Assembly (NCBI RefSeq): GCF_025460835.1 | Contig: NZ_JAMXAY010000005.1 | Span: forward strand, 1-64,000 | DNA: 64,000 nucleotides | Direction of reading: 5' to 3' | Source of the DNA: Parapedobacter soli | GTDB taxonomy: Bacteria > Bacteroidota > Bacteroidia > Sphingobacteriales > Sphingobacteriaceae | In this document: positions 1 to 15,042 of the stretch, one piece after another | Numbering within the stretch: position 1 is the stretch's first letter | How the letters are laid out: each line of letters starts with the position of its first letter | Program-made: the position numbers and the translations under genes | The notes under the pieces: generated by a model | The model's input: only the letters and a program-made list of their open reading frames with translations | Told to the model about the DNA's origin: nothing | Databases searched by the model: none

Positions 1-42
1 AATAATGTACGGCACTATTGCCGCTTAAAAATTAACTAACTA

Positions 43-822
43 TTGAAAGAGGAATTATATGACAAATTCCTGTCTGGCATAAATAACATGAAATTGTTTA
101 TGAAAGCAATGAAGGGTGCGCTAAACGAAAGTAGTACGCTATCCGACCAGCTAGAAGAAAAGATCGATGAGCTAAAGTTCCACCGCATTCCAAAAAATAT
201 GCTACTTACGGACGACTATATTTATTATACCAAAAAAAACCAGTTCGAAAAAGCATCAAGGGTAGAATTCAACGTTCCAATCGATGATCAAAAGGTTCCG
301 GTCACTATTCTTAAAAAAATGTTTCCGGACTCTAAGGATTTATTTGACAGCTTTATAATGATGCACCTAGTCACCTTTCAAATGCAGAAACGGCTTATGC
401 CAACCTGCTTTATTGTTTACAATGATCAGAAAATGCAATTCGTGTCTTTTGACAGCTCGATAAAAACCACTATCTATAGAAAACTATATGAAATAGCAAA
501 TCGTATCGAACCAGACGGAATTATTGACGTTCTATATGTTGGGGAGATGTATAATTACGTCAATACCAAGCAGATTCTCGAATTGGAAAGTAGGGAAAGA
601 ATAAAATATAAAAACTCGGAATCACTAGTATTCTTCAAATCAAGTCGCGACCTGACCATTACGTCCTATTCTTTCGATTCGAACAAGGTAAATGATATGA
701 AATATATAGCTTCTACCCTTCTTAGAAAAGATAACTCATTTAACAATTTGGCATTCATGAAGCCCGTAATCAATGAGTTCAAACGGCTAAATAAAAAAAA
801 TAAAAGCCCTGATTTTTCTTAA
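43..822 (+). CDS. Unrecognised protein of the accessory island
   Basis: I do not recognise this 259-residue protein. It is soluble-looking, with no signal peptide and no membrane segment; it is rich in Lys, Asn, Asp and aromatic residues. An in-frame TAA at 37-39 bounds it on the left. The longest form starts at TTG 43. The first in-frame ATG is at 88, and a purine-rich GAAAGAGGA at 45-53 sits well before an ATG at 59 that is out of frame and stops after seven codons, so the true start is unclear and a small frameshift near the 5' end cannot be ruled out. Base composition is AT-rich like the NACHT and RelA/SpoT genes downstream, and unlike the core genes after 4.9 kb. It could be cargo of the same island, but it is separated from the NACHT gene by 634 bp and a MITE, so it need not share its job. 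Confidence 0.6.
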   Translation: MKEELYDKFLSGINNMKLFMKAMKGALNESSTLSDQLEEKIDELKFHRIPKNMLLTDDYIYYTKKNQFEKASRVEFNVPIDDQKVPVTILKKMFPDSKDLFDSFIMMHLVTFQMQKRLMPTCFIVYNDQKMQFVSFDSSIKTTIYRKLYEIANRIEPDGIIDVLYVGEMYNYVNTKQILELESRERIKYKNSESLVFFKSSRDLTITSYSFDSNKVNDMKYIASTLLRKDNSFNNLAFMKPVINEFKRLNKKNKSPDFS

Positions 823-837
823 GTTCATAACCAATTT

Positions 838-1027
838 CACTAGTGTCCTATTAAAAATCAAGAAACGGACTATTAATAGTTGATTTACAAATTGTTGCAT
901 AGTATTTATGAGTAAACGGACTTCATTTTGTGAAACGATATTTCCTAAAGGAAAAGTGCGTTTCAGACATACTGGACATGATATTTTTAATTTTTAACAA
1001 CGTCCCAAGTTTAGTGGGACACTAGTG
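838..1027. mobile_element. MITE-like element, 190 bp, with 9-bp target duplication
   Basis: The ends are a perfect 11-bp inverted repeat, CACTAGTGTCC at 838-848 and its complement at 1017-1027. Both sides carry the direct repeat AACCAATTT (829-837 and 1028-1036), which reads as a 9-bp target site duplication. Similarity beyond the 11 bp is patchy: the left end continues TATTAAAAATC and the right end, read inward, CACTAAACTTG. The element has no open frame of useful length, so it would have to move with a transposase in trans. The element family is not identified here; a 9-bp duplication is seen in several IS families, so length alone does not decide. Confidence 0.75.
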
Positions 1028-1036
1028 AACCAATTT

Positions 1037-1456
1037 ATGATAATAGCCCAGTGCACATAGGTGATTTGTGCCGGGATACATATCGGCCGCGCTAAGTGTT
1101 TAATACCGCGTCCTTACGCGCTAAGTGATCATAACGTACCATTTATAGTTTGTGATTGCCGCTGTTCTTCAAGAGGGAACGCATTTGAAGACATTTATTG
1201 GTTCAATGAATATAAAAAGCTCTCTATGACGTTGAGGTGTTGAATTTTGTTTCAGGATTAAATTACTTTTGGCATGTTAAATCACCCTCGTATCTTGGCA
1301 TATAAAAGTCGTCAACTTTTATAACGGACTCTTCCACACGTAAATTTTGATCCGTCGGACACGTTTTATTTTAGGACTCAAGTAGTTTCAAATCAATTAT
1401 AGACCTTTGACATCGACATTCGTGACCATAGTTCAAGCTTTCAAATAGAGAATCTT
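1037..1456. other. Non-coding leader of the NACHT gene
   Basis: About 420 bp without a convincing gene. A 60-codon frame at 1061-1243 has no recognisable content and no good ribosome binding site, so I do not call it. The stretch holds an 11-bp direct repeat, CGCGCTAAGTG, at 1088-1098 and 1117-1127, and a possible promoter at 1240-1271. Confidence 0.4.
1240..1271 (+). promoter_or_regulatory. Possible promoter of the NACHT-RelA/SpoT operon
   Basis: TACTTTTG at 1264-1271 fits the Bacteroidota -7 consensus TAnnTTTG. A TTG at 1240-1242 lies 21 bp upstream, two more than the usual 19. It would give a leader of roughly 180 nt before the GTG start at 1457. Confidence 0.3.
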
Positions 1457-3739
1457 GTGAGAGAATTAAATATAAACTATATATTTACCAATCTACCACC
1501 TGTCACAAGAAGGTACAGGTTGGCAAGCAGATATTTGAACCGCGAAAATTGCACTAATACATTTATTATCAATACCATGAGTGAAGTTTTTTTCAGCGAA
1601 CTAGATGAGCTTTATACGCGCTACGGGTATGAACCGCGAAAAAACAAGTCGAATCGCGTATACCTTTTTACGAAAAGCATTTACAACGGTGCAGACATTA
1701 TAAAGACGAGTACAGACGAAGAAGCGGAGGCTCTTAAATTAGAATACTCCAAAGCTGGATATGCTGTAAAAATCCGTAATTACAAAGACATTGAAGATGC
1801 GGAATCGACGCTGTTTAAAGATTTTTTTAAAGCGGATGGCGTTATACAAAACCTGAAAAGAAGATACGATAACTTTGTCCAAAAGCTAATGTATAATCTA
1901 CCAGAAAATGCGAACTACACATATATCCGAAGCTCGTACGATTATACAGAATACAATCTGAATGAAGATACCAACAGTCCAATCTCTTATAGCGCGGAAG
2001 ACGACAATAATTCATTGGTAAACAATGTAGTAGAAAAACTAAACAAACACCAGGGGCCTCTGCTCATAATTATAGAAGCTGCTGCTGGATATGGAAAAAC
2101 TTGTACCGCATACGAGATATTGGATAAATTCATATCGGTACCAGGAAATAAACTACCCTTCTTTACGGAATTGTCTAGGGACAGGAAAGCTTCGATCTTC
2201 AAACATATTTTGGCCTTTGAAATCGAGGAACAATTTTCGAATCGAGTAGATTCAAATGTAGTTATCCACCAAATTAAAAAAGGCAGAATTCCACTTATCA
2301 TTGATGGGTTTGACGAGCTAATTACAAAAGACTTCTCCTTTTCCTCCAACCAGTTTGAGCAGGTAGAAAGCATGCTTTCAACAATTATTGACCTCTTGAC
2401 AGACAATGCTAAAGTCATCATTACTTCACGCAAAACAGCTATATTCAATAGTGAGGAATTCCACAACTGGATGACCGACCGAAATGTTGATTACACACTT
2501 GCTAAAATTACCATATCGGAACCAAAAATTGAGAATTGGTTACACAAGGACCGCTTAGATATAATAAATGCCAACAACTTCCCTGTAGAACAGTTGGCAA
2601 ATCCTGTTCTACTGACTTATTTGCGATATGTCAGAGTAGAGGATTTGAACCAAATGATTGTCGAAAACCAATCAATCGTTGATCGGTACTTTGAATTTCT
2701 CCTTAGCCGCGAACAGGATCGGCAAGGCCTATTGATAGAGCCAGAAACACAACTTAGGATATTTCGGAAGTTGGTGCGTTTCCTTACGGAATGGGATGTA
2801 AAGGCCGAAACGAAAGAGTTTATAAAGGACCTGATACTTGACTACAATAAAACCATATTAGAAGAAACTAAAAAAAAATATACCCCTGACAAGCGGCCGC
2901 GGATAGACCAACTGGCTGATATTCTTTCGAATCATGCTTTTTTAGACCGGAAGGAAAAGGGCATGATCGGAATTGTGAATGAATTTGTATTGGGAACGTT
3001 AGTTGGCGAAAATCTAATTTTAGGAAAATATGCACAATACGACAATGACTTCTACCAAAAACTATCTCAAACATTTGCCCTCTTAGCTGTACAAGCTTTT
3101 CAGGTACAGCCAAGGGAAAACAAGGAGAAGCTCTGGAAGGTATTTAATGACCACCCGTTCCACTACGAACCTCAGTTTTTTTTCAAGGTCGATATTGACT
3201 TTAAGAACGAAATTACTGGAAAGTACAGGATGGCAACATTAAATGATTTCCAGTTGCAGGGATACCAATTTACAAAGGAAAGACAATTTGAAAGCACAAT
3301 TTTCACCGCTTGCACATTCACTGATTGTACGTTTTCACTGACTGCGTTCAAAGATTCATCTTTTGTAAACTGCCGGTTTTACAATTGTGCACTTGTCACC
3401 AACGGTCAAGCCTACTCGGACTCCTTCTTTACAACCTATGGATGTAATGATGATAACGGATTCGTACAGGAAGTTTTTGCCTGTGAAGAATCGCAGGAAG
3501 AAACCGAAGCCAATGTTGAGAGGGAGATCTTAGATCTATATTTCAAGAAAGGCAGTTTGAAACCGAGACACCGACAATTGTCATATATTAAAAATGAACT
3601 TTCAGCTTTGGACTCGAAAACTGTTAGCAGAACTTTACACAATCTTGAAACAGAAGGATATATACAACTTAACGGAGATTTAAGTTTCCTCACTCGTAAG
3701 GGTATTTCTTACTATAACGATAACTATTCAATTGTCTGA
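1457..3739 (+). CDS. NACHT/STAND NTPase with pentapeptide repeats
   Basis: This 760-residue protein looks like a signal-transducing STAND ATPase of the NACHT type, the class used by bacterial and animal innate immunity. Residues 1-190 form an unrecognised N-terminal region. The P-loop is at 208-215 (AAAGYGKT; the usual first Gly is Ala). Walker B is at 279-288 with the NACHT signature DGFDE (283-287), and a sensor TSR follows at 323-325. Residues 330-560 are helical and include the expected winged-helix-like stretch. Residues 608-645 repeat the pattern FxxCxF (pentapeptide repeats), and 690-757 resemble a winged helix-turn-helix. The start is GTG 1457; ATG 1577 is the alternative and would remove 40 residues. 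The next gene follows after 3 bp, so the two are surely co-transcribed. By family logic this is the sensor and switch of a defence module; the trigger is unknown. Confidence 0.8.
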   Translation: MRELNINYIFTNLPPVTRRYRLASRYLNRENCTNTFIINTMSEVFFSELDELYTRYGYEPRKNKSNRVYLFTKSIYNGADIIKTSTDEEAEALKLEYSKAGYAVKIRNYKDIEDAESTLFKDFFKADGVIQNLKRRYDNFVQKLMYNLPENANYTYIRSSYDYTEYNLNEDTNSPISYSAEDDNNSLVNNVVEKLNKHQGPLLIIIEAAAGYGKTCTAYEILDKFISVPGNKLPFFTELSRDRKASIFKHILAFEIEEQFSNRVDSNVVIHQIKKGRIPLIIDGFDELITKDFSFSSNQFEQVESMLSTIIDLLTDNAKVIITSRKTAIFNSEEFHNWMTDRNVDYTLAKITISEPKIENWLHKDRLDIINANNFPVEQLANPVLLTYLRYVRVEDLNQMIVENQSIVDRYFEFLLSREQDRQGLLIEPETQLRIFRKLVRFLTEWDVKAETKEFIKDLILDYNKTILEETKKKYTPDKRPRIDQLADILSNHAFLDRKEKGMIGIVNEFVLGTLVGENLILGKYAQYDNDFYQKLSQTFALLAVQAFQVQPRENKEKLWKVFNDHPFHYEPQFFFKVDIDFKNEITGKYRMATLNDFQLQGYQFTKERQFESTIFTACTFTDCTFSLTAFKDSSFVNCRFYNCALVTNGQAYSDSFFTTYGCNDDNGFVQEVFACEESQEETEANVEREILDLYFKKGSLKPRHRQLSYIKNELSALDSKTVSRTLHNLETEGYIQLNGDLSFLTRKGISYYNDNYSIV

Positions 3740-3742
3740 TAA

Positions 3743-4654
3743 ATGACTGAATACGGAATTGAATTGATAGAAAAAAGGCTAAAAGACAAGCTCACTAATG
3801 AATTGATGAGGACTGGCTTATTATTTCGTCTTTTTTCTAGGGTCAAAGAGCAAACTTCTATTGAAGAAAAATTTACACGCAAATCCTACTCAAAAGAAGG
3901 TGAGCTGATGCAGGACCTAATCGGTTTTAGAATAACAACATACTTCGCCGATGACCTGAAAATAGTCGTGGATTTGTGTGAAAGGCTTTTCGAAAAGGTA
4001 GAACTGGTTTATGATGAGCCAAATACCGAGGTCTTTAAGCCGCTTCGTAAAAACATGATATGTAGATTTCACCGAGATGAGAACGAGTACTTTATTGAGG
4101 TCAAGAAGACTAACGATAGATTTGAACTAATTGACAACACCTTCGAGATACAGTTTCGGACTACTCTCTCTGAAGGATGGCACGAAGTCGACCATATAAT
4201 GAGATACAAGTGCAAGCCGGATTGGGCTGATTTGACCAATGAAAGCCGAATGTTAAATGGGATTTATGCGACACTTGAAACAAATGACCAAGCACTGAAA
4301 GCACTGTTCGAAGATATTGCATACCATCATTACAAATCAAAAAGATGGGAAGCCATGTTGAGGAATAAGCTCCGACTACGATTCTTGCCAAAAAAACTCA
4401 ATGATGAAATTTCCACATACCTGAACAAGAATAGTGAGATTGGAAAAAATATTTTCAAAATTGATAGAAACACCATTATAAATACATATATCAATTCTAC
4501 ATTGGCTTTTAAGGAGGTTACTTTTGATCATTGGATATTCTTTATAAATTATTGCTTTTTGAAGGATGAATTTATAACTTCAAAAACTCCTTCTGTTTTA
4601 ATTGACGAGTTTCAGTTTGCGCTTAATGGGACGTTAGAACAAGGCACGCCATAA
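3743..4654 (+). CDS. RelA/SpoT-fold nucleotidyltransferase
   Basis: The protein of 303 residues carries a RelA/SpoT synthetase domain in its first 160 residues. The ATP-binding motif RVKEQTSIEEK (33-43) matches the RxKxxxSIxxK pattern of the family. DLIGFRI (58-64) matches the following strand, and FEIQFRT (134-140) with W146, H151 and YK (155-156) match the EIQxRT...W..xeH...YK block that holds the catalytic Glu. There is no hydrolase (HD), TGS or ACT domain, so it is a small synthetase, not a long Rel. The NGYxSLH motif that stacks the guanine substrate is not visible; the matching place reads NMICRFH (104-110). Related toxic synthetases make (p)ppApp or pyrophosphorylate tRNA CCA ends. Residues 165-303 are a C-terminal region I do not recognise. 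It starts 3 bp after the NACHT gene, so it is the likely effector of that sensor. Confidence 0.8.
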   Translation: MTEYGIELIEKRLKDKLTNELMRTGLLFRLFSRVKEQTSIEEKFTRKSYSKEGELMQDLIGFRITTYFADDLKIVVDLCERLFEKVELVYDEPNTEVFKPLRKNMICRFHRDENEYFIEVKKTNDRFELIDNTFEIQFRTTLSEGWHEVDHIMRYKCKPDWADLTNESRMLNGIYATLETNDQALKALFEDIAYHHYKSKRWEAMLRNKLRLRFLPKKLNDEISTYLNKNSEIGKNIFKIDRNTIINTYINSTLAFKEVTFDHWIFFINYCFLKDEFITSKTPSVLIDEFQFALNGTLEQGTP

Positions 4655-4735
4655 AACATTGAATGCCATGGGGCATGTCATCGTTTCCAGTTTTCACATA
4701 TTTACACCGTCCAAAAACACTAAAAAGGGCATCAA

Positions 4736-4766
4736 GGGTTCGATTGTGGCCCCGTCCGGACCGCCA
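4736..4766 (+). other. Attachment-site remnant: tRNA 3' end
   Basis: The last 16 bases, CCCGT CCGGACC G CCA at 4751-4766, have exactly the form of a tRNA 3' end: five T-stem bases, seven acceptor bases, discriminator and CCA. GGGTTCGATT at 4736-4745 resembles the T-arm start, but five extra bases (GTGGC, 4746-4750) interrupt it, so no tRNA folds here. No 5' tRNA half precedes it. The acceptor and G discriminator fit tRNA-Asp. This is what is left at the far end of an element that entered the 3' end of a tRNA gene, with the intact tRNA expected left of the window. Confidence 0.6.
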
Positions 4767-4770
4767 GTTT

Positions 4771-4808
4771 AAAACGCAATCATCTATAAAAAAGGTGATT
4801 GCGTTTTT
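4771..4808 (+). terminator. Intrinsic terminator after the tRNA remnant
   Basis: AAAACGCAATCATC (4771-4784) pairs with GGTGATTGCGTTTT (4794-4807) with one mismatch, followed by a T run. It can act in both directions. Its place four bases after the CCA suggests that it was the terminator of the target tRNA gene. It could now end the NACHT-RelA/SpoT transcript. Confidence 0.75.
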
Positions 4809-4904: not shown

Positions 4905-5549
4905 TTAGATATACTTCATCTCCATCGCATTGTGGATAAGCGCTGCTACGTTGGTCACCTTAAATTTTTGGAGCAGGTTTCGCCTATGGCTTTCCACCGT
5001 AAGGGGACTAATGAAAATTTTCTCGCCGATTTCGGTAGAGCTGAGCCCCTTGGCCAGCCAGTGGAGCACTTCTTTCTCCCTACGGGTAATTACAGGCAGA
5101 TCTCCTGACTTCACGCTTTCTATAATCTCACGCACGTTATTGCTTAAGCCTAAGCCTCCCGATACTACCTGGCGGATGGCACCCACCACCTCATCACGGG
5201 CAGCGTTCTTGAGCAAGTACCCCGATGCCCCGGCCTGGAGCATGCGCTGGATGATGCTATGCTCATTGATATTACTGATAGCGATGACCTTACAGGCGGG
5301 GTGCAGCTGGTGTATCTCCGAGCACGCATCAATACCGTTTTTACCCGGCATATTGATGTCCAGTAGTACGATATCCACCATCTCTCGTGCCACATAGTCT
5401 AATGCAGCAATTGCATCCGTAAATGTTTCAGCGAGTCGGACGCCGGGGATATCCTGCAGCATGAACGAAAACCCTTGCAACACCACTGGATGATCGTCAA
5501 TAACGATGACATTCAACATATTATCTTCCATATCAGATCGGTATTTCAA
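4905..5549 (-). CDS. NarL/LuxR-type response regulator
   Basis: This is the DNA-binding partner of the sensor kinase upstream. The N-terminal receiver domain (about 13-130) has the acidic pair DD at 18-19 and the phospho-accepting Asp at 64 (LLDINMPGKNG). The C-terminal LuxR helix-turn-helix spans about 148-210 (TRREKEVLHWLAKGLSSTEIG...). The longest frame begins inside the kinase gene with a 17-bp overlap; the in-frame ATG six codons later (5531) lies just after the kinase stop and is equally plausible. Target genes are not visible in the window. Confidence 0.9.
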   Translation of the reverse strand: MKYRSDMEDNMLNVIVIDDHPVVLQGFSFMLQDIPGVRLAETFTDAIAALDYVAREMVDIVLLDINMPGKNGIDACSEIHQLHPACKVIAISNINEHSIIQRMLQAGASGYLLKNAARDEVVGAIRQVVSGGLGLSNNVREIIESVKSGDLPVITRREKEVLHWLAKGLSSTEIGEKIFISPLTVESHRRNLLQKFKVTNVAALIHNAMEMKYI

Positions 5550-7700: not shown

Positions 7701-8312
7701 ATGAATGCAGTATATCCTCATCACTACGGCCTTCATTTGTACGAGTACCTGCTAATCCTCGAACCGAACGGTCTCGTGCAGAAACAACTACGGTCTTTCA
7801 AGCAGTATTTCCTTAGCAATCACCGCTACCCCAATGCCATTGTCTCCAAAGGCCACATCACACTGATGCGTTTTATTCAATATGGCAGTTATGAGAAAAG
7901 CATCATCAGGGAACTTCAGCGGATAGCCGATATAGCTACCCCTTTTAATGTAGAACTATGTGGATTTGGCAGTTTCGGCCACACACTTTTCGTGGATGTC
8001 AGGTCTCCTGCCCCTATCCTCCAGCTGGCATCCAGGCACCGGCAGCAACTTCGGCCTTTGGTAAATGGCGTTAAAGGGCATCCAGCGCGGTTTGTCACCA
8101 AGCCTCACATCACGATTGCCAGGCAACTAACGCCATCGCAACATGCGGCTATATGGCCGATTTGGAACCGCACCGAATACAACGGAGAATTCCGCGCACG
8201 AAACATGACATTGCTGAGGCGGCGTGCAGGCACACTCACCTACTCCACCGTCCATAAATTTGATTTCCTGGGTCTATCCCCCATGTTTATACAGGGGAAG
8301 CTATTTGCGTAA
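7701..8312 (+). CDS. 2H phosphoesterase / 2'-5' RNA ligase-like protein
   Basis: The 203-residue protein has the two HxT motifs of the LigT/2H superfamily: HIT at 52-54 (SKGHITLMRF) and HIT at 136-138 (TKPHITIAR). In the family the two His-Thr pairs line one active site that opens 2',3'-cyclic phosphates or ligates 2'-5' RNA ends. It is a cytosolic stand-alone gene, divergent from the kinase and convergent with the sigma factor gene, with only 13 bp between the stops. The substrate is not predictable. Confidence 0.85.
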   Translation: MNAVYPHHYGLHLYEYLLILEPNGLVQKQLRSFKQYFLSNHRYPNAIVSKGHITLMRFIQYGSYEKSIIRELQRIADIATPFNVELCGFGSFGHTLFVDVRSPAPILQLASRHRQQLRPLVNGVKGHPARFVTKPHITIARQLTPSQHAAIWPIWNRTEYNGEFRARNMTLLRRRAGTLTYSTVHKFDFLGLSPMFIQGKLFA

Positions 8313-8325
8313 CGAGCCTTGGTCA

Positions 8326-8913
8326 TCACCCGGCCCTCAGCGCAGCCTCATCCCCGCACATCATTTTGCGGAGGTTATTGAGTGCATAACGCATCCTACC
8401 AAGTGCAGTATTGATGCTCACGTCGGTAACGGCAGCAATTTCTTTGAAACTCATATCGCCATAGTGCCGCATGATAAGCACCTCTTTCTGATCATCCGGA
8501 AGACGTTGTATCATCCGCCGCAGGTCGCGGTGGGTTTGCTCGCGGATCATCCGTGTTTCCACGCTTTCGTCTGCAAATTGCAGCACATCGAAAATATCAA
8601 ACCCATCGCTGTTTACCACCACTGGTGTGCGCCTTTCCTTTCGGTAGTGGTCTATCACCAAGTTATGTGCAATCCGTATCACCCAAGGCAAGAACTTGCC
8701 TTCTTCATTATAACGGCCGCCCCTCAGGGTATTGATTACCTTAATAAAAGTGTCCTGGAAAATATCTTCCGCCAAGTTCTCATCTTTCACCAACAAATAG
8801 ATGGATGTATATAATTTGGCCTTATATCGGTCTATCAACACCTCTAGCCCGGCTTCATCACCAGCTACATAAAGACCTATGAGCTCTTGGTCCGTTCGTT
8901 GTTCAAGCTTCAT
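8326..8913 (-). CDS. Sigma-70 family RNA polymerase sigma factor (ECF type)
   Basis: The 195-residue protein has the region 2 motifs of ECF factors (YLLVKDENLAEDIFQDTFIKV and FLPWVIRIAHNLVIDHYRK) and a region 4 helix-turn-helix (LPDDQKEVLIMRHYGDMSFKEIA). No anti-sigma gene is next to it; the neighbours are a 2H phosphoesterase and glyA, both in other transcription units. Sigma factors of this RpoE-like type without an anti-sigma neighbour are widespread in Bacteroidota and may control general stress genes; that role is inference. Confidence 0.9.
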   Translation of the reverse strand: MKLEQRTDQELIGLYVAGDEAGLEVLIDRYKAKLYTSIYLLVKDENLAEDIFQDTFIKVINTLRGGRYNEEGKFLPWVIRIAHNLVIDHYRKERRTPVVVNSDGFDIFDVLQFADESVETRMIREQTHRDLRRMIQRLPDDQKEVLIMRHYGDMSFKEIAAVTDVSINTALGRMRYALNNLRKMMCGDEAALRAG

Positions 8914-9100
8914 AATACGCTACTCCCGCTTTTACTATTTTCAACAAATAAGTAATCTCTTTCTTGTAGTCGTATTTCCTATAGTAGCTCTCCTTTCAAT
9001 GATTCGTGTAACTGAGCCAAAGCAAAGCAAAATTTTCAGTAATTCAAAGCTTTTGTTTGAATTTCGCCTTTTTAATCTTTCTTGGCCAAGTTATGTAACA

Positions 9101-9142
9101 AAAAAAGCCTTATCCTCCATGTGGAAGACAAGGCCTCTTTTT
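9101..9142 (-). terminator. Bidirectional terminator after glyA
   Basis: GCCTTATCCTCCA (9107-9119) pairs with TGGAAGACAAGGC (9122-9134) with two wobble positions, flanked by an A run and a T run. It lies 17 bp beyond the glyA stop on the minus strand. Confidence 0.8.
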
Positions 9143-9158
9143 CGCTTCTGAGAGCTGA

Positions 9159-10430
9159 TTATTTGTACAGCGGATAAGCCTCCATCAAGGTTTTCACCTT
9201 ATTATGTATTTTATCCAGCGCTGCTTCATCGTCGTGCTTCAATAAGGCAACATCGATCATCTCTGCAATCTCCAGCATCTGGTCTTCCTTAAGGCCACGC
9301 GTGGTGATTGCTGCCGTACCGAGCCGGATGCCCGAAGTCACAAACGGTGACCGGTCGTCAAACGGCACCATGTTCTTATTGATGGTGATGCCGGCCTTAC
9401 CCAGTGCAGCTTCAGCTGCTTTACCGCTGATACCTTTGTTACGGAGATCTATGAGCATTAAGTGGTTGTCTGTTCCTCCCGATATGATGTTGTACTCTTT
9501 ATTCACGAATGCCTCGGCCAGAACAGCTGCGTTTTTTTTCACTTGGATGATGTACTCCATATAGTCTTCGCTCAGCGCTTCGCCGAACGCGATTGCTTTG
9601 GCTGCAATGATATGCTCTAAAGGCCCACCCTGCGTACCGGGGAATACTGCTAAGTCTAGCAGTGACGTGATGCTCCGGACTTCGCCTTTGGGTGTTTTGA
9701 TACCCCAGGGGTTCTCAAAATCTTTACCCACCATAATGAGGCCACCGCGCGGTCCGCGGAGCGTCTTGTGTGTGGTGGTTGTCACCACGTGGCAGTGCGG
9801 CAACGGGTCGCTAAGCAATCCGCGGGCGATGAGGCCTGCCGGATGGGAAATATCAGCCACAACCAATGCGCCGATTTCATCAGCCACCTTGCGGATGAAA
9901 GCATAGTCCCAATCGCGCGAATAGGCCGATGCGCCGCAAATGATTACCTTTGGTTTTTCCTGTAGGGCCACCTCTTCCAACTGCTTGTAATCAATCAGCC
10001 CCGTTTCTCTATCCACACCATAAAACAGCGGTTGGTACAACTTCCCCGAAAAGTTGACCGGCGAGCCATGGGTAAGGTGTCCGCCGTGGGAAAGGTCGAA
10101 ACCTAAAATCTTGTCGCCCGGCTGCAGTAGTGCCAAAAATACCGCAGCGTTGGCTTGTGCACCCGAGTGCGGCTGCACGTTCACCCACTCAGCATCGAAT
10201 AGCTTTTTAGCCCTTTCGATAGCGACCGTCTCTACTTCGTCTACGACCTCGCAACCGCCGTAATAACGCTTACCGGGCAAGCCCTCGGCATATTTATTGG
10301 TCAACACCGATCCAGCAGCTTCCATCACCTGCTTACTCACAAAGTTTTCCGATGCAATGAGTTCGATGCCTTCCTCTTGGCGCTTGAGCTCTTGGTTGAT
10401 TAACTTGAATATGGTTTCGTCCCTTCTCAT
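9159..10430 (-). CDS. glyA: Serine hydroxymethyltransferase
   Basis: GlyA interconverts serine and glycine with tetrahydrofolate and feeds one-carbon metabolism. The 423 residues match the usual length. Visible marks are the N-terminal ELIASENF, the [12 protein letters not shown]-like substrate region ([10 protein letters not shown]), and the PLP-binding motif [14 protein letters not shown] with the Schiff-base Lys. It is transcribed alone from a canonical promoter upstream and ends at a strong terminator. Confidence 0.97.
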
Positions 10431-10464
10431 TGTGGTACAAAGAATTGAATGTTAAAAAGTTGCG

Positions 10465-10494
10465 CAAAGATATAAACTTGGGCGCAATATTCAA
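10465..10494 (-). promoter_or_regulatory. glyA promoter
   Basis: On the minus strand TATCTTTG (10465-10472) is a perfect TAnnTTTG box and TTG (10492-10494) lies exactly 19 bp upstream. Transcription would start near 10459, about 28 nt before the ATG. Confidence 0.75.
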
Positions 10495-11018
10495 CCCACC
10501 AACTGACTTTTGATGGTTTTTAATGCCATATCATACGGATTCTCCTCCAATGCGGCAATATGCGCCAGTAATACGGTGCTGAGCTCCTTGGCTGTTGCGG
10601 TGGACGGCAGGCCTGCACCCGCATTCCGGATGAGTGCTACCGTATTATCTTTCACCTGTCCGGTGACCGACCACGCCACATCACTCACATACAATTGCTG
10701 TGTGATATTGTGTTGGTATTCGGCCCTTATCTCGTCGACGAGCCGGCGCTCAAACTCCTTTGCGCTGAGGCCGGACATATGCAAGCGTACTGCCGCGTTG
10801 GCCGGATTTATCCGCTCAATCAGCAACACCAACCGTTCGTAAGCCTGTAGCCGCAACGGCAGCACTTCTTTATTTGCAGCATACTTCGCTTCCAACGTCT
10901 TGAGCCGGAAAACGTGGCTGTTATATTTGGTCCAAAACATCCAATTACCCACCCCCACCACCACGCATCCAGCGAATACATACTTGAAAATATCTAAAGA
11001 AAATGAAGCAATATCCAT
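10491..11018 (-). CDS. Membrane-anchored conserved hypothetical protein (DUF7935-like)
   Basis: The 175-residue protein has one N-terminal membrane segment (about 9-30) followed by a cytosolic helical part. I associate it with a conserved Bacteroidota family (DUF7935), but from memory of the pattern only. It contains no enzyme motif that I can see. It sits upstream of glyA on the same strand, yet glyA has its own promoter overlapping the end of this gene. It is divergent from the A-type Fe-S carrier gene. Confidence 0.7.
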   Translation of the reverse strand: MDIASFSLDIFKYVFAGCVVVGVGNWMFWTKYNSHVFRLKTLEAKYAANKEVLPLRLQAYERLVLLIERINPANAAVRLHMSGLSAKEFERRLVDEIRAEYQHNITQQLYVSDVAWSVTGQVKDNTVALIRNAGAGLPSTATAKELSTVLLAHIAALEENPYDMALKTIKSQLVG

Positions 11019-11123
11019 TTATTCCGTTTGTTTAGCGAACGTAAAAAATCCGAACAGCCATACAAAAGTGGGTAATATTTATGTATTTTTGCATGGTTTG
11101 GATGAATTAAATCAGCTAAGAAG

Positions 11124-11477
11124 ATGAGTACAGCAACACAATCACCTTCAGCACCGTTGACATTGACCCAAGGGGCTGTCCAGGAACTCCAGAAACTGAA
11201 GGACCAGCAAGAGCTATCGGAAGACTTCGGATTACGTGTTGGAGTTGAAGGGGGCGGATGCGCCGGAATGAATTATATTTTAGGATTCGACCAAAAGAAA
11301 GACGGCGATTCGGAATACGATATCGAAGGCATACGGATATTCATGAATAAAGCCCACGGTTTGTATCTGGCTGGGATGCAGATTGATTTCAAAGATGGGC
11401 TGGATGCACGCGGTTTCGTGTTCAACAACCCTAACGCCGAGAGCACCTGTGGTTGCGGGTCATCGTTTTCGGCCTAA
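11124..11477 (+). CDS. A-type iron-sulfur carrier (IscA/ErpA/HesB family)
   Basis: The 117-residue protein has the three family cysteines: Cys46 in GGGCAGMNY and Cys109/Cys111 in the C-terminal TCGCGSSF. These ligate an Fe-S cluster or iron that is passed to apo-proteins. The length matches the family. No other isc or suf gene is adjacent. TATTTTTG at 11084-11091 is a possible -7 box, but no -33 element is obvious. Confidence 0.93.
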   Translation: MSTATQSPSAPLTLTQGAVQELQKLKDQQELSEDFGLRVGVEGGGCAGMNYILGFDQKKDGDSEYDIEGIRIFMNKAHGLYLAGMQIDFKDGLDARGFVFNNPNAESTCGCGSSFSA

Positions 11478-11511
11478 TATCCCTGAGATCCTTCTCGAGA
11501 ATCAATGATAC

Positions 11512-11539
11512 GGCCGCGTCTCCACAGTTGTCCGCGGCC
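11512..11539 (+). terminator. Hairpin between Fe-S carrier gene and ileS
   Basis: GGCCGCG (11512-11518) pairs with CGCGGCC (11533-11539) around a 14-nt loop, followed by a pyrimidine-rich TCTTCT. It is GC-rich enough to act as a terminator for the upstream gene, but it lacks a clean T run. Confidence 0.4.
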
Positions 11540-11570
11540 TCTTCTATTCCACCTATAATCAACCTTTCCT

Positions 11571-11600
11571 TTTTCATTTCGTACTAATTCCCTATCTTTG
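11571..11600 (+). promoter_or_regulatory. ileS promoter
   Basis: TATCTTTG at 11593-11600 is a perfect -7 box. TTT at 11571-11573, 19 bp upstream, stands where TTG is expected. The leader would be about 20 nt to the ATG at 11629. Confidence 0.55.
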
Positions 11601-11628
11601 CAACCTCATTTTTGAACACAAACGATTG

Positions 11629-14600
11629 ATGTACAGAGAATACAAGCAGCTGAATTTATCTGAAATCGGCAAGGATATGCTTACTTATTGGCAGCGTGAA
11701 AATATCTTTGAAAAAAGTGTGGATTCGCGGCCGGCAAGCAAGCCCTATACTTTCTACGAAGGCCCCCCTTCTGCCAATGGTATGCCCGGTATACACCACG
11801 TAATGGCACGCACCATCAAAGACATATTCTGCCGTTACAAAACCCTGAAAGGTTACCGGGTGAAACGCAAAGGTGGTTGGGACACACATGGTTTGCCCAT
11901 CGAACTGGCTGTGGAAAAAACGCTTGGCATTACCAAGGAGGATATCGGAAAAACCATCTCAGTCGCCGATTACAATGCGGCGTGCCGCCGGGAAGTGATG
12001 AAGTATACGGACGTATGGAACGACCTCACTGAGAAAATGGGTTATTGGGTCGACCTCGAAAACCCGTATATCACCTACGAAAATGAGTATATCGAGACGC
12101 TGTGGTGGATATTGAAAGAATTATACCGCAAAGGCCTATTGTACAAAGGGTATACTATCCAACCCTACTCGCCCGCTGCAGGCACCGGGCTAAGCTCACA
12201 CGAACTTAACCAGCCGGGCACTTATAAGCCGCTAAAAGATACGACCATAGTTGCTGAGTTCCGCATCAAGAAAGATCAGGTCCACCCAGCCATGGAAATG
12301 CTTTTCGAAGAAGAAAATGAAGATACCGCTTTCCTGGCTTGGACGACCACACCCTGGACACTGCCTGCAAACAGTGCGCTGGTGGTAGGCAAAGACATAC
12401 GCTATGTAAAAATCCGCACATTCAACCAGTATACATTCGAACCGGTTAGCGTGGTATTGGCCAAAGACCTCGTGAGCCGATTCTTCAAACCCGAAGGACA
12501 ACAGGTTCCGCTAAAGGAGTACCAGCGCAATGATAAGACTATCCCCTGGGAGATCAGAGCCGAATTTTTGGGTGCCGAGCTCCTCAACTTAAGGTACCAT
12601 CAATTGATGCCTTACGTTACCAATGAGCTGTTGGAACAAAAGGCTTTCCGAGTCATCGCCGGTGATTTCGTCACCACCGAAGACGGTACCGGTATCGTGC
12701 ATTCATCCGCAACATTTGGTGCAGACGACTTTCGCGTGAGTAAAGAAAATGATGTGCCCGGTGTTTTTGTAAAAGATGAAAACGGCAAAGAAGTCCCTAT
12801 CGTAGATAAGCAGGGCCGGTTTGTCACAGAGATCGGGGAGTTTGGCGGGCGGTTTGTGAAAGAGGAATACTATAGCGATGAAGAACGGGCTGCTGCCGGG
12901 TTCAAGCCCACCGATGTGCTCATCGCCATCAAGCTGAAAGAAGAAAACAAGGCCTTTGAAGTAAAAAAATACGAACACAGCTACCCGCATTGCTGGCGTA
13001 CGGATAAGCCGGTACTTTATTATCCTTTGGATAGCTGGTTCATCCGTACCACTGCTGTGAAAGACGAGTTGGTTACGCTCAACAAAACCATCAACTGGAA
13101 ACCCGAGTCGACCGGCACAGGCCGCTTCGGGAATTGGTTGGAAAACCTGGTAGATTGGAACCTTTCACGCTCCCGCTATTGGGGTACCCCCCTTCCCATC
13201 TGGCGTAGCGAGGATGAAAATGAAGAACTGTGCATCGGCTCCATTGCCGAGCTGAAAGCCAAAATCGAGCAGAGCTTGGCCTCTGACGTACTGGATGAAG
13301 CCGAAAAAGGCAAACTTGAAGAATACCTGGACAAATTCGGCACCGACCAGTTGGATTTGCACCGCCCATACGTAGATGATGTGGTGCTGGTGTCTGATGG
13401 AGGTCAGAAACTTTACCGCGAACCGGATCTTATCGACGTGTGGTTCGACAGCGGTGCCATGCCGTTTGCGCAGTGGGGGCTGGACCAGGAGAAAGTAGCC
13501 GCTGGCGACGACACACCATTCAAGGACGGTTTCGAAGGGGCTTACCCCGCCGATTTCATTGCCGAGGGGGTGGACCAAACGCGGGGCTGGTTTTTCACGC
13601 TGCATGCGATATCCACCATGCTCCGCCATTCCATCGCATTCAAGAATGTGGTATCCAACGGCCTTGTGCTCGACAAAAACGGCAACAAGATGTCGAAACG
13701 CCTCGGTAACGCCGTTGATCCTTTCGCTACCATCGAAACACATAGTGCCGATGCTACCCGCTGGTATATGATCAGTAATGCAGCGCCGTGGGACAACCTT
13801 AAGTTTAACGAAGAGGGGTTGGACGAAGTGCGCCGCAAGTTCTTCGGCACTTTATACAACACTTATGCATTTTTTGCGCTATATGCCAATATAGATCGGT
13901 TCGCTTACAAGGAAGCCGACCTACCTATCGACCAACGGCCGGAAATAGACCGCTGGGTCATCTCCCTGCTCAACACATTGACCCGCGAGGTTGACCATCA
14001 CTATGCCGACTTCGAGCCGACAAAAGCTGCCCGTGCCATCCAAACGTTTGTAGACGAGCACCTCAGTAACTGGTATGTCCGGCTGTGCCGCCGGCGCTTC
14101 TGGAAAGGCGACTATACCGAAGATAAGGTGTCGGCCTACCAGACGCTTTATACGTGCTTGAACACAGTTGCCAAACTCATGTCGCCTATCGCACCGTTTT
14201 TCAGCGACAGGCTCTACCTCGACCTGAATGGTGCAACCCGGAAAGAACAGGCTGAATCGGTACACTTGGCTGATTTCCCCATATACCAAGCTGAATTGGT
14301 GGACAAAGGTTTGGAAGAACGTATGGCCTTGGCACAGGATATCTCGTCCCTCACCCTATCTTTACGCAAGAAAACGGGTATCAACGTGCGTCAGCCACTT
14401 CAAAAAATCTTATTACCCGTGCTGGACGATACGTTCCGGAAGCAGGTGGAACAGGTGGCCGCACTCATCCTTTCTGAGACCAATATCAAGCAAATCGAGT
14501 TCATAGCAGACACTTCAGGTTTGGTGAAGAAGAAAATAAAGCCTAATTTCAAGACTTTAGGCCCGAAAGTAGGGAAAGACATGAAAAAAGTAGCGGCGGC

Positions 14601-15042
14601 TATCCAGGCATTTACGGCCGGGGAAATCGCAGAACTGGAAGAGCTGGGATCTATCGCTATCGCCAACACGCCTTACACTATCCAACTGGCCGATGTGGAA
14701 ATCATTGCGGAGGATGTTGCCGGGTGGCAGGTGGCCAACCTCGGCAAACTTACTGTGGCCCTGGATATCGGCATTACGCCCGAACTGAAAAAAGAGGGTA
14801 TTTCCCGGGAGCTGATAAACCGGATCCAAAACCTGCGCAAAGAGCAGGGCTTGGAAGTAACGGATAGGATAAAGGTAAGTTTGAGTGACGTTCCCGAAAT
14901 TACGGAAGCAGCAACGGGCAATTTATCTTATATTCGCACCGAGATATTGGCAGACTCTTTGATATTCGAAGATAGCCTAGCAACGGGCGATACGATAGAG
15001 ATTGCGGAAAAGGAATTGAATGTATTAATCGAAAAAGTGTAA
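11629..15042 (+). CDS. ileS: Isoleucine--tRNA ligase
   Basis: A full-length class I aminoacyl-tRNA synthetase of 1137 residues, the longer type used by Bacteroidota. The HIGH-type motif is GMPGIHH near residue 53 and the KMSKS-type motif is KMSKR near 687. The editing domain lies between them, and the C-terminal anticodon-binding part includes NLRKEQGLEVTDRI. I start at ATG 11629; a TTG directly before it would add one residue only. The DksA-like gene follows after 4 bp and lspA soon after, so ileS, dksA-like and lspA probably share one transcript ending at 16156. The ileS-lspA linkage is common in bacteria. Confidence 0.96.
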   Translation: MYREYKQLNLSEIGKDMLTYWQRENIFEKSVDSRPASKPYTFYEGPPSANGMPGIHHVMARTIKDIFCRYKTLKGYRVKRKGGWDTHGLPIELAVEKTLGITKEDIGKTISVADYNAACRREVMKYTDVWNDLTEKMGYWVDLENPYITYENEYIETLWWILKELYRKGLLYKGYTIQPYSPAAGTGLSSHELNQPGTYKPLKDTTIVAEFRIKKDQVHPAMEMLFEEENEDTAFLAWTTTPWTLPANSALVVGKDIRYVKIRTFNQYTFEPVSVVLAKDLVSRFFKPEGQQVPLKEYQRNDKTIPWEIRAEFLGAELLNLRYHQLMPYVTNELLEQKAFRVIAGDFVTTEDGTGIVHSSATFGADDFRVSKENDVPGVFVKDENGKEVPIVDKQGRFVTEIGEFGGRFVKEEYYSDEERAAAGFKPTDVLIAIKLKEENKAFEVKKYEHSYPHCWRTDKPVLYYPLDSWFIRTTAVKDELVTLNKTINWKPESTGTGRFGNWLENLVDWNLSRSRYWGTPLPIWRSEDENEELCIGSIAELKAKIEQSLASDVLDEAEKGKLEEYLDKFGTDQLDLHRPYVDDVVLVSDGGQKLYREPDLIDVWFDSGAMPFAQWGLDQEKVAAGDDTPFKDGFEGAYPADFIAEGVDQTRGWFFTLHAISTMLRHSIAFKNVVSNGLVLDKNGNKMSKRLGNAVDPFATIETHSADATRWYMISNAAPWDNLKFNEEGLDEVRRKFFGTLYNTYAFFALYANIDRFAYKEADLPIDQRPEIDRWVISLLNTLTREVDHHYADFEPTKAARAIQTFVDEHLSNWYVRLCRRRFWKGDYTEDKVSAYQTLYTCLNTVAKLMSPIAPFFSDRLYLDLNGATRKEQAESVHLADFPIYQAELVDKGLEERMALAQDISSLTLSLRKKTGINVRQPLQKILLPVLDDTFRKQVEQVAALILSETNIKQIEFIADTSGLVKKKIKPNFKTLGPKVGKDMKKVAAAIQAFTAGEIAELEELGSIAIANTPYTIQLADVEIIAEDVAGWQVANLGKLTVALDIGITPELKKEGISRELINRIQNLRKEQGLEVTDRIKVSLSDVPEITEAATGNLSYIRTEILADSLIFEDSLATGDTIEIAEKELNVLIEKV

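Follow-up and report, generated by a model that had tools for sequence, protein, structure and literature searches.

A tRNA-Asp 3' end as the probable integration site of a serine-integrase conjugative element in Parapedobacter soli

We have analysed a window of 64,000 nucleotides from Parapedobacter soli; contig C123, one of 177 in the genome, begins with it. Its left part belongs to a genomic island, and the location of this island at the tRNA-Asp gene is firmly established. The boundary found in the window is very probably an attR site, formed when a serine integrase inserted an integrative conjugative element, at least 72 kb long, at the 3' end of tRNA-Asp. The likely enzyme is the recombinase LSR1, with a crossover in the four bases CCGC. 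The features of the window are the following:

1–45 (no strand): probable end of a multicopy insertion sequence, which breaks the assembly between contig C112 and the window contig; flanked by the repeat AAAGAG
43–822 (forward strand): C-terminal part of an island gene, function not assigned; the N-terminal part is the last open reading frame of C112
1457–3739 (forward strand): cargo; NACHT NTPase with an inactive-nuclease N-terminus and pentapeptide repeats (Pfam NA-iREase2 8.8e-35, NACHT 8e-6)
3743–4654 (forward strand): cargo; RelA/SpoT-domain protein (Pfam RelA_SpoT 1e-12)
4730–4764 (forward strand): CATCAAGGGTTCGATTGTGGCCCCGTCCGGACCGC, island right end, interpreted as the arm of attR that stems from attP; six related right ends are found in genomes G081, G134 and G055
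4736–4743 (forward strand): T-loop-like block GGGTTCGA, whose distance to CCGC exceeds that in the tRNA by 5 bp; proposed zinc-ribbon motif
4746–4750 (forward strand): GTGGC, the five extra bases of the initial annotation; linker part of the arm, with counterpart bases in related arms
4761–4764 (forward strand): CCGC, smallest segment common to attL, attR and the related elements; the G055 and G081 ends lead us to place the crossover in it
4765–4766 (forward strand): CA, host bases after the ancestral tRNA-Asp; identical CAGTTTAAAACGCAATCAT after the intact tRNA-Asp in genome G005
4771–4807 (forward strand): original tRNA-Asp terminator, 15-pair stem and T-run; found after the intact tRNA-Asp in G005 and after a remnant in G008
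4905–5549 (reverse strand): LuxR-type response regulator, on the host side
7701–15042 (no strand): core block with 2H phosphoesterase, ECF sigma, glyA, IscA-type and ileS genes; ancestral right flank of tRNA-Asp in G007 and G008, partly in G006

The two ends of the island

The sequence CCCGTCCGGACCGCCA at 4751–4766 occurs a single time in the whole 5.17 Mb genome, and a stretch of 25 bases across the site has a chance expectation of 0.00 within the window. The initial annotation had read it as a perfect tRNA 3' end lacking a 5' half, followed by a terminator, with AT-rich genes on one side and core genes on the other. This description agrees with our results. The window has no tRNA 5' half, because both ARAGORN (zero tRNA genes) and an Rfam search (zero matches) were empty for it. 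A terminator-like hairpin with a 15-pair stem and a T-rich tail is found at 4771–4807. The G+C content is 0.30–0.42 to the left of the junction, compared with about 0.45–0.55 to its right.

The only tRNA-Asp gene of the genome lies in contig C112, at 88897–88971. Its 3' end has 14 bases in common with the window site, CCCGTCCGGACCGC, which are followed by TG in the tRNA-Asp context and by CA in the window; beyond the common bases we find ..TGAGCGGGAGAATTGAAAAATTCTCCCGC in C112 and ..CAGTTTAAAACGCAATCATC in the window. An intact tRNA gene ending in ..GACCGCCA had been predicted, together with an integrase. Both the gene and the integrase are present in C112, but the predicted ending had to be rejected for this genome: the intact gene ends in ..GACCGCTG, because the island brings its own downstream sequence and terminator.

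Genus relatives have prfA directly to the left of tRNA-Asp. In G007 and G008 this pair is followed, in one contig and within 4–9 kb downstream, by the genes for 2H phosphoesterase, ECF sigma, glyA, the IscA-type protein and ileS; in the contig piece read from G006 the first two of this block (2H phosphoesterase and ECF sigma) are found near prfA–tRNA-Asp. The genome studied here has the left part, prfA–tRNA-Asp, in C112 and the right part at 7701–15042 of the window. With an intact tRNA-Asp at the other end and the ancestral flank at the window end, the proposal of an island boundary in tRNA-Asp is confirmed. The 2H–glyA–ileS genes were chosen as a marker of the locus because orthologues of the response regulator, which was rejected for this purpose, lie elsewhere in the relatives. 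The comparison with relatives that had been suggested also gave the expected result: in G005 the window's terminator (CAGTTTAAAACGCAATCATTTG..GTGGTTGCGTTTTTGTTTTG) comes directly after the intact tRNA-Asp. However the region past the terminator in G005 is unlike that of the window, which counts against our interpretation.

The window starts at a contig edge, so there is no assembled DNA to its left. Contig C112 and the window contig can be linked because their ends carry two halves of one gene. The last open reading frame of C112 (155803–156344) matches the first 167 residues of a Chryseobacterium protein of 420 amino acids, and the first one of the window (43–822) matches its remaining residues; the identities are 79% and 70–71%, and the two parts meet at the same residue. 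The last 44 bases of C112 recur at contig ends elsewhere, in C169 and C177, and AAAGAG (6 bp) can be read on both sides of the break. The gene appears to have been split by an insertion sequence, and C112 would join the window through an unassembled copy of it. The split gene supports a continuous element between the two ends, while the insertion sequence gap itself is unassembled. From the split gene and the insertion sequence at the break, the island therefore comprises C112:88972–156344, the unassembled insertion sequence and positions 1–4764 of the window: 67.4 kb plus 4.8 kb plus the insertion sequence, at least 72 kb. The same 420-residue protein is also found at loci L098 and L099 (9506–10768), in the latter with a tRNA-Arg and a further large serine recombinase nearby.

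The surroundings of tRNA-Asp have other peculiarities. In C112 about 75 extra bases (about 88820–88896, L044) are placed between the usual promoter region and the tRNA gene. They are missing in the genus relatives and include a degenerate stretch similar to a T-arm and acceptor, GGGTTCAGGTCCCGCCCGGAC. In G008 (C1, L075, 9007–11747) tRNA-Asp is followed by two remnants of its 3' end without the extra bases (10827 and 11731). Such successive remnants indicate that the locus is a hotspot of repeated integration, apparently also for another kind of element. Downstream of its tRNA-Asp, G002 (C37; L083, about 9996–10056) retains the same left end over about 60 bp but lacks the recombinase gene; the match is 97% over 116 bp when the tRNA is included, and we interpret it as the trace of a lost element.

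Related right ends and the position of the crossover

The distance from GGTTCGA to CCGC is 17 bases at the window site, compared with 12 in the intact tRNA-Asp. The five extra bases seen in the initial annotation thus correspond to a real difference in spacing, but they do not look like inserted bases which broke a T-arm, since the same spacing recurs in related ends. A private insertion of GTGGC is also rejected by the equivalent bases of the related arms. We have found six relatives of the window's arm: G081:C69:7251, G134:C35:32104, 37968 and 39740, and G055:C3:704854 and 710906. Their layout is TATCAARGGTTYGATTGT, then a CCC..CCGC segment, then varied downstream sequence. All seven right ends, the window included, have GGTTYGATTGT in common. 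Between GGTTYGA and CCGC six of them have 17 bases and one G055 arm has 16, whereas there are 12 in tRNA-Asp, in tRNA-Ser and in the simple remnants of G008 and G081. The G055 arm, with a spacing 4 rather than 5 bases longer than that of the tRNA, counts against our interpretation. The pattern AAGGGTTYGA-N17-CCRC has 8 matches in 24 genomes, compared with one control match; 6 of the 8 are this arm, and the other two are unlike it and apparently due to chance. The genomes with the arm are those with the closest relatives of LSR1 that were found, G081 (71%) and G134 (68%), plus G055. A search for the exact layout in 20 other genomes gave no such arm.

Two of these genomes help to locate the crossover. 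A single contig of G055 contains prfA, tRNA-Asp, a remnant similar to LSR1, cargo of about 3 kb, the arm ..CCCCGTACAGTCCGC and then a terminator; the tRNA-Asp reads ..CCCGTCCATTCCGC, and the element is decayed. The G081 arm ..CCCGTACAGCCCGC continues into AACAAAAGCCTTA, a sequence also found after a tRNA-Asp of this genome (..CATTCCGC). Counted back from the junction, arm and host have CCGC in common in G081 and TCCGC in G055; we therefore assume that element sequence gives way to host sequence at CCGC. If the element in the window behaves in the same way, the ten bases CCCGTCCGGA probably derive from the element, with host sequence from CCGC onward. The acceptor-like part is unlike the host tRNA in most right ends and is therefore probably mainly element sequence.

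A possible variant, to which we give clearly less credit, accepts the serine integrase and attributes CCCGTCCGGA to the host, either through a crossover further to the left or through gene conversion with the tRNA gene. These ten bases, immediately to the left of CCGC, match exactly the species-specific acceptor bases of the host tRNA-Asp, as also happens in one G134 arm (37968), so that a host remnant or gene conversion fits them as well as a mimic borne by the element. On the other hand five of the seven arms have non-host bases almost up to CCGC, and a single integrase family should share a single crossover point.

It is improbable that the right end comes from a second, different element accreted to the right of the one with LSR1. 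Tandem ends do exist in G134 (three arms) and in G008, and the island has two serine recombinases and several transposases. Nevertheless there is no second tRNA-Asp-like junction in the 67 kb of C112 to the right of the tRNA, and the arm and the LSR family occur together; in G055 they bound one small element.

Still less probable is a tyrosine-recombinase island, in which the remnant would be the host tRNA 3' end left by a crossover in the T-loop and the five bases a later insertion: the 14 bases are indeed those of the host tRNA-Asp 3' end, and G008 at this locus and G081 beside a tRNA-Asp have remnants without extra bases, but the tRNA is adjoined by serine and not by tyrosine recombinases, the longer spacing in six other right ends of three genomes excludes a private insertion, the acceptor-like bases of most related ends differ from those of the host, and in place of an uninterrupted tRNA 3'-end repeat including the T-loop we find a 14-bp repeat with a T-loop-like block offset by 5 bp.

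The arms of G134 deserve a separate comment. All three (C35: 32104, 37968 and 39740) are in tandem, in a contig whose LSR is at tRNA-Ser. Two of them are followed by the same terminator and one by a left-end hairpin of the LSR type, an attP-like junction. We rejected the idea that the terminator belongs to tRNA-Ser, since in G055 it is found after tRNA-Asp. With its nearest LSR at tRNA-Ser but two arms with a tRNA-Asp terminator, the contig is rearranged or composite, a further point against our interpretation.

LSR1 and its proposed mode of integration

Two proteins with Resolvase and Recombinase domains, LSR1 and LSR2, are found next to tRNA-Asp; no tyrosine integrase was found among the genes examined next to this tRNA. 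The crossover by a tyrosine recombinase assumed in the initial annotation is thus contradicted, since the adjoining integrases are large serine recombinases. LSR1 has 531 amino acids and is coded in the minus strand of C112 at 88916–90511 (L076:9917–11512), adjoining the tRNA. It matches the A118 integrase, whose structure has been solved in this part, over the DNA-binding domains (3.9e-5). We favour it as the enzyme responsible for the insertion, although the presence of LSR2 in the island counts against this assignment.

Homologues of LSR1 (E at most 1e-80) are found in 49 of 400 genomes of the order. We have read 30 of them. In most cases the 3' end of a tRNA-Ser, tRNA-Asp, tRNA-Arg or tmRNA lies just beyond the 3' end of the gene, and a terminator hairpin comes next to it on the element side. 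In 18 of the 30 the reading frame clearly continues past the junction and enters the RNA gene on its antisense strand; several of the remainder are damaged genes or cases in which automatic placement of the boundary failed. The right ends of homologues at tRNA-Ser and tmRNA were searched for within 80 kb in four genomes and were not found, which counts against our interpretation; the 5-bp offset is shown for one subfamily only. The open reading frame of LSR1 and those of its homologues L101–L129 have no stop before the att junction, and their last residues are antisense to the host tRNA or tmRNA. The C-terminal tail of LSR1 is LSGPDGTRTRDPMRDRHVF in the integrated state, and the circle that we deduce would give LSGPDGATIEPLMPFLVFLDGVNM.

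The mechanism we propose is that a serine integrase inserts the element at the 3' end of tRNA-Asp, with a crossover inside the CCGC segment, where the acceptor stem ends. On the left side the tRNA would stay whole and gain the element's own terminator hairpin; on the right side the attP arm of the element would be followed by the old tRNA terminator. Since attP and attB have to be bound by one and the same integrase, this arm would resemble the T-arm and the 3' strand of the acceptor; its T-loop-like motif lies farther out by 5 bp. The junction of the circle would read CATCAAGGGTTCGATTGTGGCCCCGTCCGGACCGC-TGAGCGGGAGAATTG and the empty site GGGTTCGAGTCCCGTCCGGACCGC-CAGTTTAAAACG.

In serine integrases the recombinase domain is equally placed on attP and attB, while on attB the zinc-ribbon domain is nearer to the centre by 5 bp (PMC3783163). 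The attB of A118 is T-rich in positions 17–19, with G15 and C11 conserved (PMC3783163). When the CC of CCGC is taken as the central dinucleotide, a count by hand gives T18, T17, G15 and C11 in the tRNA, which in our reading would be the positions favoured in A118 attB. For the arm studied, 6 of 7 cases show an attP motif whose distance from the centre exceeds that in attB by 5 bp; GGGTTCGA would then be the zinc-ribbon motif. The P' and B' half-sites have a weak motif similarity. As a tentative generalization, a family of serine integrases of Bacteroidota might use the 3' ends of tRNA and tmRNA as attB and read the T-loop as zinc-ribbon motif, with an attP arm which mimics the tRNA at a 5-bp offset. 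The integrase gene would span the crossover, its last residues being antisense to the tRNA when integrated and coded by the attP arm before integration, and the behaviour of the enzyme might depend on its state.

Content of the island and known systems

From the tRNA inward, the island has the two large serine recombinases (531 and 555 aa) and a D12-class methyltransferase, followed by a MobC-like coupling protein, TraM, TraK, TraJ, TraG, ParA and a MobA-type relaxase. After these conjugation genes come metal resistance genes: a CusA-type RND pump, a copper P-type ATPase and MerA. There are also several transposases. Judged by its gene content, the island is an integrative conjugative element.

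The integrase of A118 from Listeria (LI), described by Rutherford et al. 2013 (PMC3783163), has Resolvase, Recombinase and zinc-ribbon domains arranged as in LSR1, and the distance of its motif from the centre is 5 bp greater in attP than in attB, as in the island arm when compared with the tRNA. The island differs in having a tRNA 3' end as attB and a T-loop sequence as motif, in a conjugative element. To our knowledge the A118 integrase does not use a tRNA site. Conjugative transposons of the CTnDOT type in Bacteroidota have TraG, TraJ, TraK, TraM, a MobC-like coupling protein and a relaxase as the island does, but the latter has serine and not tyrosine recombinases at its integrating end, and its target is tRNA-Asp. 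The nearest named NCBIfam models for LSR1 are the SCCmec recombinases CcrA (5e-26) and CcrB (2.8e-25), with matches far below the family cut-offs. The SCCmec Ccr recombinases integrate at the end of a gene, like the island; however the LSR1 family targets tRNA and tmRNA, and cargo and host phylum are different. The islands detected by Islander and TIGER also lie at a tRNA 3' end and leave the tRNA intact. They typically have a long block of identity and a tyrosine integrase, whereas only 14 bases are shared here and 4 in the related elements.

Serine integrases of mycobacteriophages are described as avoiding tRNA genes (PMC9262239), and tRNA sites have been linked to tyrosine recombinases (PMC5704250). 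A family which uses tRNA and tmRNA ends would depart from the general description of serine integrases as avoiding tRNA genes. If our interpretation is true, it offers a natural test, in many hosts, of the structural model for the recognition of attP and attB, because the motif of the host is the almost invariant T-loop. It would also explain how such ends could be missed or misread by island finders that rely on long direct repeats, and would provide integrases for conserved landing sites. The literature we compared consists of open-access papers, and elements of this kind may already be included in the TIGER and Islander data sets.

The cargo next to the boundary gave no match with PADLOC. 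It has a gene for a NACHT protein with an inactive-nuclease domain directly followed by that of a RelA/SpoT-domain protein (1457–4654), a possible defence pair outside the PADLOC models. The AT-rich gap before the NACHT gene contains an imperfect inverted repeat of 31 nt (825–855 and 1010–1040, 77%) around 154 nt, possibly a small mobile repeat.
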